Assembly: GCA_015200345.1 (NCBI GenBank)
Contig: CP054187.1
Coordinates: 1,472,470-1,536,469, forward strand
Source: Planctomycetia bacterium
Lineage (GTDB): Bacteria; Planctomycetota; Phycisphaerae; UBA1845; UTPLA1
DNA: 64,000 nucleotides
Reading direction: 5' to 3'
The translations under genes and the position numbers were made by a program. Position 1 is the stretch's first letter, and each line of letters opens with the position of its first letter. Shown here in pieces: positions 14,238 through 48,732 of the stretch. Below the pieces are notes generated by a model, which searched no databases, was not told where the DNA came from, and saw only the letters and a program-made list of their open reading frames with translations.

Positions 14238-15749
14238 ATGCACCCCGGCCCCGCAGCCTCCAAGATCATCGGCGACGGTATCACCTTCGATGACGTGCTC
14301 CTGCTCCCCGCGCGCAGCAGCGTCGTCCCGAAAGACGCCGACGTGCGCACGCATCTGACGCGCAACATCACGATCAACATCCCGCTCGTCTCCGCGCCGA
14401 TGGACACCGTCACCGAAGCCGGGCTGGCCATCGCCCTCGCGCAGGAAGGCGGCATCGGCATCATTCACAAGAACCTTCCGCCCGACGTGCAGTGCCGCGA
14501 GGTCGAAAAGGTCAAGCGCTCCGCCAATGGCGTCATCCTTGACCCGGTCACCCTGCGGCCGACCGATACGGTGGATCGCGCGGCCGAGTTGATGCGCCTG
14601 CACAACATCTCCGGCGTCCCGATCACGGACGAGTCGGGCGTTCTGGTCGGCATCGTCACGCGGCGCGACATGAAGTTTCTGCTGCACGCCGACCGGCAGG
14701 GTTCGACGGCCGGCGCGATGAAGATCGCGCAGATCATGACGAAGGACGACCTCGTGACCGCCCCGCCAGGGACCAGTCTTGACGAGGCCGATCGCATTCT
14801 TCAGCAGCACAAGGTCGAGAAGCTCCTGCTGGTTCACGCCGACCGACGGCTGGCAGGGTTGATCACAATCAAGGACATCGACAAGAATCGACAATTCCCG
14901 AACAGTTGCCGCGATGCGCGGGGGCGCCTTCGCGTCGGGGCGGCCGTCGGCGTTCACGAATACGATCGCGTGGCCGCGCTGATCGAGGCCGAGGTGGACG
15001 TGATCGCGGTCGACACGGCGCACGGCCATTCGGACAACGTGATCGAGACGGTTCGGCGGATCAAGCGCGAGCACAGCATCGACGTGATCGCCGGGAACAT
15101 CGCGACAGCCGAAGCGGCGGTTGACCTGCTCGACGCGGGGGCCGACGCGCTCAAGGTCGGCATCGGCCCGGGTTCGATCTGCACGACGCGAATCGTGTCC
15201 GGCGTGGGCGTGCCGCAGCTTTCGGCAATCATGAACGTGGTCAGCGTCGCGCAGGATCGGCATGTCCCGGTGATTGCCGACGGCGGAGTGCGGTTCAGCG
15301 GGGACATCACCAAGGCGATTGCCGCCGGGGCGCACAGCGTGATGATCGGGTCGCTGTTCGCCGGTCTGGACGAGTCACCGGGCAGCGTGGTGCTCTGGAA
15401 AGGCCGCCGGTACAAGGAATATCGCGGGATGGGGTCGCTGGGGGCGATGGTTTCGGGCAGCGCCGACCGATACAAACAAGGCGGCGAGACGCAGCGGGAC
15501 AAGCTGGTGCCCGAGGGCGTCGAGGGGCGCGTGCCCTATCGCGGCCGCCTGGCGGAGCTGACGTACCAACTGGTCGGCGGGCTTCGATCGGGCATGGGTT
15601 ACTGCGGCGCGGCGTCGATCGAGGCCCTGCGGCATGACGCACGATTCGTGCGGATCAGCGGCGCGAGCATGGTCGAGTCGCACCCGCACAACCTGGTCAT
15701 CACCGAGGAAGCGCCGAACTACGCCGTGGAACACATTGTCGAGGTTTGA
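14238..15749 (+). CDS. guaB: Inosine-5'-monophosphate dehydrogenase
   Basis: This 503-residue enzyme oxidises IMP to XMP with NAD+, the first committed step to GMP. It begins with the TIM-barrel start ([23 protein letters not shown]) and [25 protein letters not shown]. Two CBS domains are inserted at about 95-220, then the barrel resumes with the catalytic loop [13 protein letters not shown] (Cys315), the phosphate-binding [21 protein letters not shown], and the flap segment. Length and order match bacterial GuaB. The downstream lipoprotein starts one base after the stop codon and may be cotranscribed. Confidence 0.97.
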
Positions 15750-15750
15750 G

Positions 15751-16371
15751 ATGAGCATGATACGTCTGTCTGGTTATTTCGCGATCGCGGCGATGGCGCT
15801 GGCGCTCACTGGCTCCGCCGGGTGCGCGCACGTCAACAATCCGTACGAGGACTCCGGCGCGACGATCAACTCGGAGATGAAGACAACCAGCTCCGAGAGC
15901 TACGCGAGGGGCCATTCCGAGTTCGGCCGGCCCGTCCGTCGGCAGGCGCCCGAATCCGAGGTGCGGTATGAGAACGGCGCGGTCACGCATTGGCCGCTCT
16001 GGTTTGAAGATCCCTTCGAGGACAAAGGCAATCGGTTCATCCCATACGGCAACGCCGACGCCGAGCGCGACCTGCCCGACAATGAGTTCGCCTGGAACTG
16101 GGTGGATTACTTCCACATGGCCTACGGCCCAGCCCGGCTCGTCACCAACGCCGTCGGCTGGCCGGTCAGCGCCGTCGTGCAGCATCCGGGCATGTTGCTG
16201 GAGAGCAACGGGCGCATCGACCGCAATCTCCTCGGATACGATCACGACGCGACGCGCAGCGACAGCGTCACGCGCGAACCGCCGCATGTGAGCATCATCA
16301 ACAAGCAGGTGCTCGAGTCCGACGCCGAGGCGACCGACGATGCAGCCGATGCAGCGCCGTCCGCGAATTAA
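15751..16371 (+). CDS. Lipoprotein of unknown function
   Basis: This 206-residue protein starts with a signal peptide and lipobox (ALALTGSAGCAHVNNPY; Cys at about 25) and is otherwise soluble and acidic. The central segment is aromatic-rich (HWPLWFEDPFEDKGN, FAWNWVDYFHMAYGPARL) and contains NAVGWPVSAVVQHPG. I do not recognise a named family. The ATG lies directly after the guaB TGA, with GAGG 10 nt upstream, so it is translated from the guaB message or by re-initiation. It probably acts in the periplasm or outer membrane. The pairing with guaB gives no clear functional hint. Confidence 0.8.
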   Translation: MSMIRLSGYFAIAAMALALTGSAGCAHVNNPYEDSGATINSEMKTTSSESYARGHSEFGRPVRRQAPESEVRYENGAVTHWPLWFEDPFEDKGNRFIPYGNADAERDLPDNEFAWNWVDYFHMAYGPARLVTNAVGWPVSAVVQHPGMLLESNGRIDRNLLGYDHDATRSDSVTREPPHVSIINKQVLESDAEATDDAADAAPSAN

Positions 16372-16399
16372 GGCCGGGGCGTCGTCGAAACAGCGTCGT

Positions 16400-16428
16400 T
16401 TGGCCGACGACGACGCGTTTGGTATCAT
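16400..16428 (+). promoter_or_regulatory. Promoter of the cysteine-rich lipoprotein gene
   Basis: TTGGCC and TATCAT are separated by 17 nt, about 80 nt before the ATG. A GCGTCGTCG/CGACGACGC inverted repeat overlaps the -35 region. Confidence 0.45.
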
Positions 16429-16513
16429 GTTCCTGAAGTGGAACCGCTTCGACAGGCGTACGCCGAGGTTGCGTGTGCCGGTTTGCCTCTTGGTAGAAAA
16501 AGGAAGGAACCCC

Positions 16514-16747
16514 ATGAACGCCCTGCGAACCAAGCTCTCGAAAGTGGCCTGCCTCGCCTGTTGTGCCGTCGCCCTGCTCGTCGGCTCGGCCTGCTCGCAG
16601 AACACCTGCGGCGATTGCTCGTCCGACAAGTGCTGCATGGCCAAGTGCGCGGCCGGCTGCTGCGACGCCAACTGCAAGAGCGAGACCTGCTGCAAAGAGA
16701 AGAAGTGCGCCGCCAACTGCGACGCCCCTTGCTGCAAGAAGGCCTGA
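16514..16747 (+). CDS. Metallothionein-like cysteine-rich lipoprotein
   Basis: This 77-residue protein has a signal peptide (KVACLACCAVALLVGSAC) that probably ends at Cys27, a weak lipobox. The mature part has 15 Cys in 51 residues, arranged as CxxC, CC and CxxxC pairs (CGDC, KCCMAKC, GCCDANC, TCCKEKKC, NCDAPCC), with many Lys and no aromatic residues. This density of thiols suggests a metal-binding, metallothionein-like role or a disulphide-knotted surface peptide. I know of no exact family. AGGAAGGA lies 5-6 nt before the ATG, so translation should be efficient. Its downstream neighbour is an iron-sulphur protein, supporting a metal theme. The function is inferred only. Confidence 0.8.
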   Translation: MNALRTKLSKVACLACCAVALLVGSACSQNTCGDCSSDKCCMAKCAAGCCDANCKSETCCKEKKCAANCDAPCCKKA

Positions 16748-16832
16748 TCAACACCGGAAAAACGCTCATTCGGCATGACCGGACGGCATGATCAGCCGCC
16801 TGGTTCGGCCCTGTTGCGCGGAGGAACGCCTG

Positions 16833-17078
16833 ATGAACGCCAAGCACGACAACAAGCCGATCGTCATTGAAGAAACGCCGGGCAAGAAGGCCTACTGCCA
16901 GTGCGGCCATTCGGCGAAGCTGCCCTATTGCGACGGCGCGCACGCGCGCCTCGGCACGGGATTGGCCCCCATCGTGTGTGAAATCAGCGAGGCAGGGAAA
17001 AAGGCGGTCTGCCAGTGTCACCGCAGCGGCAATCTGCCCTGGTGCGACGGATCGCACAAGTCAATGGCCAGTGGTTAG
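16833..17078 (+). CDS. Tandem CDGSH iron-sulphur protein
   Basis: This 81-residue protein has two complete CDGSH-type motifs: CQCGHSAKLPYCDGAH and CQCHRSGNLPWCDGSH, each with the CxC...CDG(A/S)H ligand set that binds a [2Fe-2S] cluster by three Cys and one His. Bacterial members are small cytoplasmic proteins, single- or double-motif, implicated in iron or redox handling. There is no signal peptide. GGAGGAA lies 8 nt before the ATG. It sits 85 bp after the cysteine-rich lipoprotein gene with no evident promoter between, so the two may be cotranscribed. The final Ser-Gly codons run into the AATTC-rich intergenic stretch. Confidence 0.9.
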   Translation: MNAKHDNKPIVIEETPGKKAYCQCGHSAKLPYCDGAHARLGTGLAPIVCEISEAGKKAVCQCHRSGNLPWCDGSHKSMASG

Positions 17079-17189
17079 TAGACAGCGGCCGGTGGGAAGT
17101 GGGCAGAGAAGTTAAGAATGGAGAATTGGGAATGGAGAGAGCTTTCTGGAAGTCACCCCAATTCTCAACTCTACATTTTTCGCAATTCG
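17079..17189. repeat. Degenerate AATTC-type intergenic sequence
   Basis: This 111 bp stretch between convergent genes contains GTGGTTAGTAGACAG, GGTGGGAAGTGGGCAG, AGAATGGAGAATTGGGAATGG and later CAATTCTCAACTC. The AATTC/ATTCTC words resemble, partly in inverted orientation, the AT-rich tails of the two dispersed repeats at 3832 and 43585. It may be a decayed relative of that tail. Confidence 0.35.
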
Positions 17190-18527
17190 CTATTGGCGCT
17201 TCGCAATCTTCCGCCACAGCGGAAACGCCCCCGCCACGATCGCGAGCACTCCCAGCGTATAGAGCCAGTCGTGCCCGCCACGGCCAATCTCCTCCATCGC
17301 GACGAAAATGGCTATCAGCATTTGAACGCTCGTGACGAACAGGGCCGTCCCCACGCCGCCGGGCGCCAGAAAGACCTCGTCCCGGCGAATCCCCGCGCGG
17401 CGATCCCGCGCGCGGAACACGATGAGGCTGACGTACGCCATCCCATAAAGAATCGTGCTGGCGACGAAGTAAATGCCCAGAATCTCCGTGAACGATCGCT
17501 GCAACACGAAAACCGCTGCGATCCCCGCCGCCAGCATCTGCGACCAAACCGGTGACTGCCCCGCGTTCATCCGCGCCAGCGCCGCCGGCGCCAGGCCATC
17601 CCGCGCGAGCGCAAACGTCACGCGCACATTGGACAGAATGGTCGAACTGATCGAGCCGAGGCAAACGAGGATCCCGGCGATCAATACGACCTCGCGAAAT
17701 CCCGTCAGGCCGACTCGGCTCAACGCCGCGGCGGCCGCGCTGCCCGATCCGCGCATGGCCTGCGGCGTTGCCGCGCAGAGCAGACCGTATTGATACAGAA
17801 CATAGACGGCTGTCAGAAAAATGGTCGTCGATGCCAGCGCGCGGGGCAGCCGTTGGCGAGCGTCGCGCATTTCCTCGGCGAGCTTGGCGCTGTCGGTTGC
17901 GCCGGCGTACGACCACATCACGCTGACGAGGCCGAGCAGGAATCCTTTTGCGGTAACCGCATCAATCGGCGTCGTCTCGACCTGCGGTGTCCAGCGTCCC
18001 GCCCCCACCCACGCGACGATCCCGATTCCAACAACCGTCGCGACCTTCAGAATCGTCAACAAATTCTGGAACACCGCCCCCGCGCGAAGCCCGATGACGT
18101 TGGCCGCCGTCACCAGCGCCAGCGCGGCGCAGCCGAAAACGGATTCCGCAGCGGGAACGCTCCAACCGAACAGTTGCGATGCAAGGCGCCCCAGCCCGGC
18201 CGCGATGACGCCCGTCCCGGCGCCGGTGACAAAGATGGTGAACGACCAACCGAAGAAGAACGCGGCAAAGTCTCCATACGCCGCGCGAAGATACTGATAC
18301 TCCGCCCCCGCCTGCGGAAACCGAGTGGCCAATTCTGCCGTCACGAGAGCCTGAAGATACGTGATTGCTCCGCCGGCGATCCACGCCACGAGCAGCCACC
18401 CGGGCGAGGGAATCCATCCCGCCATGTCGCCCGGCGTCGTGAAGACGCCCGAGCCGATGGCGACGCCGAGGCCGACAAAGACAATCGTCCATGTCCCGAG
18501 GAGGCGCTTCAGCGCGCATCCGTTCAC
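17190..18527 (-). CDS. APC-superfamily amino acid permease
   Basis: This 445-residue protein has about 12 predicted membrane segments. The APC signature appears in helix 1, IVFVGLGVAIGSGVFTTPG (GxG(S/A)GxF substrate loop), then AWIAGGAITYLQALVTAELATRFPQAGAEYQYLRAAYG and, in helix 6, SVMWSYAGATDSAKLAEEM. These proton- or exchange-coupled carriers move amino acids across the inner membrane; the substrate is unknown. The GTG start overlaps the purC stop by 4 nt (GTGA), so the two are translationally coupled. The 3' end is followed by the AATTC-type intergenic sequence. Confidence 0.88.
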   Translation of the reverse strand: MNGCALKRLLGTWTIVFVGLGVAIGSGVFTTPGDMAGWIPSPGWLLVAWIAGGAITYLQALVTAELATRFPQAGAEYQYLRAAYGDFAAFFFGWSFTIFVTGAGTGVIAAGLGRLASQLFGWSVPAAESVFGCAALALVTAANVIGLRAGAVFQNLLTILKVATVVGIGIVAWVGAGRWTPQVETTPIDAVTAKGFLLGLVSVMWSYAGATDSAKLAEEMRDARQRLPRALASTTIFLTAVYVLYQYGLLCAATPQAMRGSGSAAAAALSRVGLTGFREVVLIAGILVCLGSISSTILSNVRVTFALARDGLAPAALARMNAGQSPVWSQMLAAGIAAVFVLQRSFTEILGIYFVASTILYGMAYVSLIVFRARDRRAGIRRDEVFLAPGGVGTALFVTSVQMLIAIFVAMEEIGRGGHDWLYTLGVLAIVAGAFPLWRKIAKRQ

Positions 18528-47343: not shown

Positions 47344-47481
47344 GTTGCGCGGTGGAAGTTCGTGCAGGTAGCGAGGCGATCTCGCAATCACCGGGCCGAC
47401 GCGGCCCGGCTTTGAAGCGGGATCGCTCGGTCATCGAAAGCGGGCACGTCGATCGCGTCAAAGCGCATATACTGTCCGGCG

Positions 47482-48732
47482 ATGCGCGGTTTGGTTTACG
47501 AAGCTTCGCCGATGCGCTGGATGCTCTGCCGGGTGGCGGGCCTGTTCACCCCGCGCGCGTACTACGGTCCTCTGTCGATGCTGCGCCTGCGCGAACTGCC
47601 GATGCCGGCGCTGCCCGGCCCGGACTGGGTGCGCCTGCGAACGCGCTTGGGCGGCATCTGCGGCACGGATCTCGCCCTGATCGCGCAGCGCAACCATCCG
47701 GCGACCGTCCTTCAGCGTTTTGCACACTTTCCGGCCGTCCTGGGCCACGAAAACGTGGCCACGATTGAAGCAGTGGGCGAAGGCGTGCGAGGCTGGGCCG
47801 TCGGCCAGCGGGTTTGCGTCGAGCCTTCCATCGGCTGCGCGGGCCGCGGGATGGCGCCGCTGTGTGCACAGTGTGCAGCGGGCCGATGCTCGATCTGTGA
47901 GCATGCGGGCGACGCCGATCTTCCCCCGCGGGCACTGGTGGGGTTGAATCGCCTGACGGGCGGGAGCTGGTCGGAGTTCTTTGTCGCCCATGTATCGCAG
48001 CTTCACGCCGTATCGGACGCGCTGCCCGACGAGCAGGCTGTGTTGATTGATCCATTGGCGTCGGCGGCGCATGGCGTGCTTCGCCGGCCGCCGCGCGCGG
48101 GCGAGCGCGTGCTGGTGAACGGTGCGGGGATCATCGCGCTGGGCGTGATCGCGGCGATTCGGGCGCTGGGATTGCGGAATGAAATCGTCGCGACGGCGCG
48201 GCACGCCTTCCAATCGCATCTGGCACGAAGCGCCGGCGCAACGGATGTGATTGAGATCCCGAGCGGAACGCGCCAGGCGGACCGGTATGAAGCGATCGCG
48301 CGGCGCGTCGGCGGCCGGCGAGTGGAAGGACGATTCGGCAACCAGGGCCTGCTTGGCGGGTTTGATCTGACGTACGACTGCACCGGCAACGGGGCGGGCA
48401 TGACCGATGCGATGAAATGGACGCGGGCGCGAGGGTGCGTTGTGATGCTGGGCACGAGCGGAATCACGCTGCTTGATACCACCCCGCTCTGGTTTGACGA
48501 GTTGGAAGTCATCGGGGCCAACGGTCGCCAGATGGAAGAGTCCGAAGGCAGCAAGGTTCACACATACGAGATGCTGATGGGCTGGGTGGCCGAGGGTCGT
48601 TTGAAGCTGGACGCGTTTCCGGTTCGGACGTATCGGCTGGACGCCTATCGGACGGCGTTGGGGGATTTGCTGTCGCGCGGGCGGCGCGGGGTTCTGAAGG
48701 CAGCATTTGATTTTCGGTCCGCAGGTGGCTGA
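47482..48732 (+). CDS. Zinc-type medium-chain dehydrogenase/reductase
   Basis: This 416-residue enzyme has the MDR layout: GGICGTDLALI, FPAVLGHENVATIEAVGEGV (catalytic zinc Cys, Gly-His-Glu), a Cys cluster CAQCAAGRCSIC (CxxCx4CxxC) as structural zinc site with unusual spacing, then the Rossmann fold VLVNGAGIIALGVIAAIRALG. It oxidises an alcohol or sugar with NAD(P)+. The substrate is unknown. A TATACT box ends 8 nt before the ATG with no ribosome-binding site, suggesting a leaderless message. The nearest upstream gene ends in a terminator. Confidence 0.87.
   Translation: MRGLVYEASPMRWMLCRVAGLFTPRAYYGPLSMLRLRELPMPALPGPDWVRLRTRLGGICGTDLALIAQRNHPATVLQRFAHFPAVLGHENVATIEAVGEGVRGWAVGQRVCVEPSIGCAGRGMAPLCAQCAAGRCSICEHAGDADLPPRALVGLNRLTGGSWSEFFVAHVSQLHAVSDALPDEQAVLIDPLASAAHGVLRRPPRAGERVLVNGAGIIALGVIAAIRALGLRNEIVATARHAFQSHLARSAGATDVIEIPSGTRQADRYEAIARRVGGRRVEGRFGNQGLLGGFDLTYDCTGNGAGMTDAMKWTRARGCVVMLGTSGITLLDTTPLWFDELEVIGANGRQMEESEGSKVHTYEMLMGWVAEGRLKLDAFPVRTYRLDAYRTALGDLLSRGRRGVLKAAFDFRSAGG

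Follow-up and report, generated by a model that had tools for sequence, protein, structure and literature searches.

The window analysed here, a 64,000-nucleotide stretch of planctomycete DNA, contains a gene for a small Cys-rich lipoprotein followed on the same strand by a gene for a tandem CDGSH protein. The original prediction had described a 77-residue exported protein rich in Cys and, 85 bp later in the same direction, a protein with two complete CDGSH motifs; the gene positions, the lipobox and the Pfam match given below bear out this anatomy. The features of the locus, in window coordinates, are as follows.

14238..15749, + strand: guaB (IMP dehydrogenase), an ORF that opens the conserved block and lies upstream of the pair in 7/7 pair genomes
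15748..16371, + strand: fam2, an exported lipoprotein-like protein, directly 3' of guaB at family f1 loci
16400..16428, + strand: candidate sigma-70-like promoter TTGGCC-N17-TATCAT (sequence match; hexamers and spacing kept in G031)
16500..16508, + strand: ribosome-binding site AAGGAAGGA of the Cys-lipoprotein gene (from sequence; partly kept in G031)
16514..16747, + strand: Cys-rich lipoprotein gene, 77 aa (ORF)
16514-16591, + strand: predicted signal peptide of the Cys-lipoprotein (pattern match)
16592-16594, + strand: codon of the predicted lipidated Cys (lipobox)
16820..16826, + strand: ribosome-binding site GGAGGAA of the CDGSH gene (from sequence; kept in G031)
16833..17078, + strand: tandem CDGSH [2Fe-2S] gene (type 6 CISD), 81 aa (ORF, Pfam)
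16896-16943, + strand: CDGSH motif 1
17010-17057, + strand: CDGSH motif 2

The 81-aa product of the downstream ORF (16833-17078, + strand) contains the motifs CQCGHSAKLPYCDGAH and CQCHRSGNLPWCDGSH, both complete versions of C-X-C-X2-S-X3-P-X-C-D-G-[SA]-H, at residues 22-37 and 60-75 with 22 residues between them. Pfam zf-CDGSH matches this protein in two stretches (8e-18), and the Cys3-His ligands of both motifs are invariant across 31 sequences. Type 6 CISD proteins are defined by two complete CDGSH motifs ∼20 residues apart (PMC3174974), which is the arrangement found here together with a predicted monomeric, pseudo-dimeric beta-sandwich fold. The structure was predicted with confidence (pLDDT 92), and over the whole chain it most resembles human MiNT/CISD3 (6avj) and the bacterial type 6 protein 3tbn (TM 0.79-0.81). 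When the protein is compared with these type 6 proteins (MmCISD 3tbn and human MiNT/CISD3 6avj), the tandem motifs and predicted fold are the same and there is no essential difference. The gene is under purifying selection relative to its counterpart in the congeneric genome G031 (dN/dS 0.03, from few sites), and it is the one CDGSH gene of this type in its own genome. Relatives are common in Phycisphaerae and in other phyla, and many Phycisphaerae in the sample carry type 6-like tandem CDGSH proteins; a 2011 report gave type 4 as the preferred CISD type in Planctomycetes (PMC3174974). From these results, we conclude that the 81-aa product is a typical type 6 CISD.

The upstream ORF (16514-16747, + strand) translates as MNALRTKLSKVACLACCAVALLVGSACSQN..., a 77-aa protein whose lipobox Cys is residue 27, and the pattern of lipobox plus signal peptide is shared by this protein and four family f1 relatives. 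On this pattern, the protein is predicted to be lipidated. Its mature part of 51 residues holds 15 Cys (the lipidated one and 14 others). It lacks aromatic residues and consists of CX3CX3CC units strung together, namely CMAKCAAGCC, CAANCDAPCC, and a near-repeat, CDANCKSETCC. Searches gave no match to families in Pfam or NCBIfam up to E=1 or to PDB sequences up to E=5. AlphaFold gave no fold (pLDDT 46) from an input alignment of 5 rows only; this result is consistent with a protein that needs bound metal or disulfides in order to fold, and it is a weak indication because the alignment is so shallow.

Between the window and G031, dN/dS for the mature Cys-lipoprotein is ∼0.05 (from few sites), and the flanking intergenic DNA has diverged. 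Purifying selection on the coding sequence, together with the recurrence of the protein in other genomes, rules out a chance ORF. Cys-dense chance readings do occur in this GC-rich window, as in an out-of-frame reading at 47372-47677 (+ strand) with 11 Cys in 40 residues that overlaps an alcohol-dehydrogenase-like ORF, so conservation is what makes the Cys-lipoprotein ORF credible.

Relatives of the Cys-lipoprotein were found by a profile search in 15/397 genomes of the class. Of the order's 114 genomes, 21 had relatives by a wider profile, built partly from genomes that the same profile then finds; a few of these matches are weak (G212, E 0.006; G188, E 3e-4). A phylum-wide draw returned relatives in 2/293 other genomes. 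Among the genomes sampled, the family is thus nearly confined to the order and occurs almost nowhere else.

The lipobox and signal peptide recur across the relatives used. Their mature parts are 32-94 residues long with 7-22 Cys besides the lipidated one and at most one aromatic residue; apart from Cys they are nearly all Lys, Ala, Gly, and Asp, with many Lys. In most of them the sequence closes with CC and a Lys/Ala-rich tail, and the number of exact CX3CX3(4)CC units per relative ranges from none to five. When scored with the family f1 profile, six relatives from another family exceeded all 200 composition-matched shuffles of their own mature parts, which shows that spacing or residue order is shared, by descent or convergence, and not composition alone. 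Based on these data, the Cys-lipoprotein represents a previously undescribed family with CX3CX3CC repeats as its building blocks, and this unannotated family, rather than the gene pair, is the new and interesting part of the finding. Its repeat is distinctive, and the repeat number varies.

Our best reading, to which we give a probability of about 0.5, is that the lipoprotein, anchored to a membrane, buffers metal outside the cytoplasm in the manner of a metallothionein, that the CDGSH protein is cytosolic, and that the two do not form an obligate pair. The signal peptide would export the small lipoprotein, the lipidated Cys would hold it to the membrane, and its Cys thiolates would bind soft metals, for example Cu(I) or Zn(II), aided in several relatives by His clusters. 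The type 6 CDGSH protein would carry two [2Fe-2S] clusters in the cytosol, so that the two proteins would act in different compartments, probably without depending on each other. Metal binding is the most likely property of the mature part, judging from its Cys density, its lack of aromatics, and features of the relatives, namely His clusters in several of 19 (EHGHDHG, DHSHKHQHGK, EDHKHGW, EEHKHGW) and CKC or CSHC motifs in those from G287, G293, and G296. CKC and CSHC motifs are typical of metal sites. The window protein itself has none of the CXC motifs that are common in metallothioneins. In the loci listed, whose translated ORFs were mostly inspected visually, no neighbor of any relative stood out as a recognized metal-handling gene, so the metal reading draws on the protein sequences themselves.

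Metallothioneins have been described chiefly from the cytosol. Like the bacterial metallothioneins SmtA/BmtA and MymT, the window protein is small and Cys-rich, has almost no aromatics, and lacks a predicted stable apo fold; unlike them, it is an exported lipoprotein with CX3CX3CC spacing. No described metallothionein family model in Pfam or NCBIfam matched it and, given the lack of any family match in these databases to E=1 or in the PDB to E=5, we do not file it as a metallothionein. It shares with exported copper storage proteins of the Csp1 type the character, here by sequence, of an exported Cys-rich store, whereas Csp1 carries a Tat signal and folds into a four-helix bundle, and no fold is predicted for the window protein, a short lipoprotein. 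The bacterial metallothioneins and Csp proteins reviewed are cytosolic, except Csp1, which is a Tat-exported folded bundle (PMC7558416). In the literature searched, which excluded most subscription papers, no exported or membrane-anchored bacterial metallothionein was found. If the metal reading is correct, a lipid-anchored metallothionein family outside the cytoplasm would be a new way to buffer metal at the cell envelope.

The main rival, serious though in our estimate unlikely, is that the lipoprotein is a disulfide-bonded envelope protein without a metal role, whose intra- or intermolecular disulfides would cross-link or stiffen a surface layer. Not counting the lipidated Cys, 16 of 19 mature parts have an even Cys count, as disulfide pairing would favor, and even counts are also partly expected because a four-Cys repeat biases toward them. 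The genome has no DsbB and encodes two VKOR homologs, so exported thiols may be oxidized. The relative in G045 carries CASDCKKECKEGCTAPCC, with the exact CX3CX3CX3CX3CC spacing of the cnidarian minicollagen Cys-rich domain, which forms disulfides (PMC4195985). This is a resemblance in spacing only: the organisms are unrelated, and the window protein has CX3CX3CC alone rather than CX3CX3CX3CX3CC beside collagen triplets, with no Gly-X-Y repeats. The occurrence of the Cys module inside or after a lipocalin-like lipoprotein is also in keeping with an envelope role. Against it stand the His clusters and CKC motifs of several relatives, the shortness of the mature parts and their restricted composition, and the finding that most genomes of the order are without the family, which would be odd for a structural component. 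The lipocalin-like lipoproteins with a CX3CX3CC module are those of G077 and G385 (L184:4930-5382 and L137:1507-2022); the module lies mid-domain in one and at the C terminus in the other, as if portable, and the lipocalin likeness is a sub-threshold Pfam match in G385 only.

The original prediction also treated the two genes as one unit with a shared promoter and good ribosome-binding sites. The proposed promoter is plausible: 15700-17250 holds no sigma-70-like site other than TTGGCC-N17-TATCAT, and G031 retains its two hexamers, still 17 bp apart, although the sequence between them has diverged. Ribosome-binding sites precede both genes; GGAGGAA is kept in G031, whereas AAGGAAGG, that of the lipoprotein gene, is kept just partly. 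No terminator-like site was found in the 85-bp gap between the genes, and the two may be co-transcribed. The corresponding gap in G031 is 205 bp, so their close spacing is not fixed.

Family f1 comprises 17 genomes, 13 of them with a CDGSH gene. In seven of these, from four genera (G000, G031, G045, G287, G293, G296, and G322), the Cys-lipoprotein gene lies directly upstream of the CDGSH gene on the same strand, and the order in all seven is guaB, fam2, Cys-lipoprotein, CDGSH. The pair in G045 was found by direct inspection, its lipoprotein being below the profile threshold. The other 6/13 have no Cys-lipoprotein beside the CDGSH gene: G118 and G124 keep the guaB-fam2-CDGSH order without it, and in G052, G130, G200, and G397 the CDGSH gene is elsewhere. 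Across the CDGSH loci scanned, a Cys-lipoprotein was present in 4/111, all four from family f1. The pair that was predicted to recur in other genomes does so, within this one family, and the remaining 107 loci rule out a widespread pair. On a guaB tree, the details of which are rough (the G130 row was badly extracted and has a very long branch), the distribution of the pair is explained by 2 changes compared with a shuffled mean of 5.7. This pattern is compatible with an ancestral block that was lost or broken in some lineages. The fam2 protein (15748-16371), which had no Pfam or NCBIfam match, has homologs in 94/114 genomes of the order. We conclude that the pair is the tail of a conserved guaB neighborhood and is real within one bacterial family.

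Outside this neighborhood, the two genes part company. In f3 genus g13 (L130, L131, L132, L134, and L138), the Cys-lipoprotein gene is directly downstream of an SSF symporter gene in 5/5 genomes (sodium:solute symporter, PF00474, an identity checked for one of these neighbors), and the CDGSH gene sits on a different contig. In G212, which lacks a CDGSH gene, a lipoprotein of weak relatedness lies near purC. The CDGSH loci without a lipoprotein and the SSF-linked lipoprotein in a second family show that the two genes are separable.

These data bear on the proposal that the two proteins form one small system across the membrane, with a metal or thiol sink outside and an Fe-S redox partner inside. 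An exported lipoprotein and a tandem CDGSH protein do recur as neighbors, at the guaB locus the lipoprotein was never seen without CDGSH, and on the guaB tree the pair needs fewer changes than after shuffling; a joint function is possible on this conserved neighborhood in one bacterial family. The single system itself we consider improbable. Because guaB and fam2 are likewise conserved neighbors, shared synteny explains the pairing, and the separations in G118, G124, G212, and genus g13 argue in the same direction. In addition, a cytosolic and an exported protein would need a membrane partner to make contact, and none is conserved alongside. The more specific version, in which an extracytoplasmic metallothionein and a cytosolic NEET-type Fe-S protein would make up a two-compartment metal/Fe-S stress module, is quite improbable; if true, it would be the first such pairing described. 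Little is known of what type 6 CDGSH proteins do in bacteria, and the locus offers a setting in which this can be tested. Equally hard to favor is a lipoprotein acting as a thiol/redox buffer or an electrophile/peroxide scavenger rather than as a metal buffer: dense Cys outside the cytoplasm and a redox-active Fe-S protein as neighbor would suit it, but no reductase stood out nearby in the loci listed, and the His clusters favor a metal role.

A few kb from the Cys-lipoprotein gene at one of the genus g13 loci lies a second Cys-rich, possibly exported ORF (L138:2443-3057).
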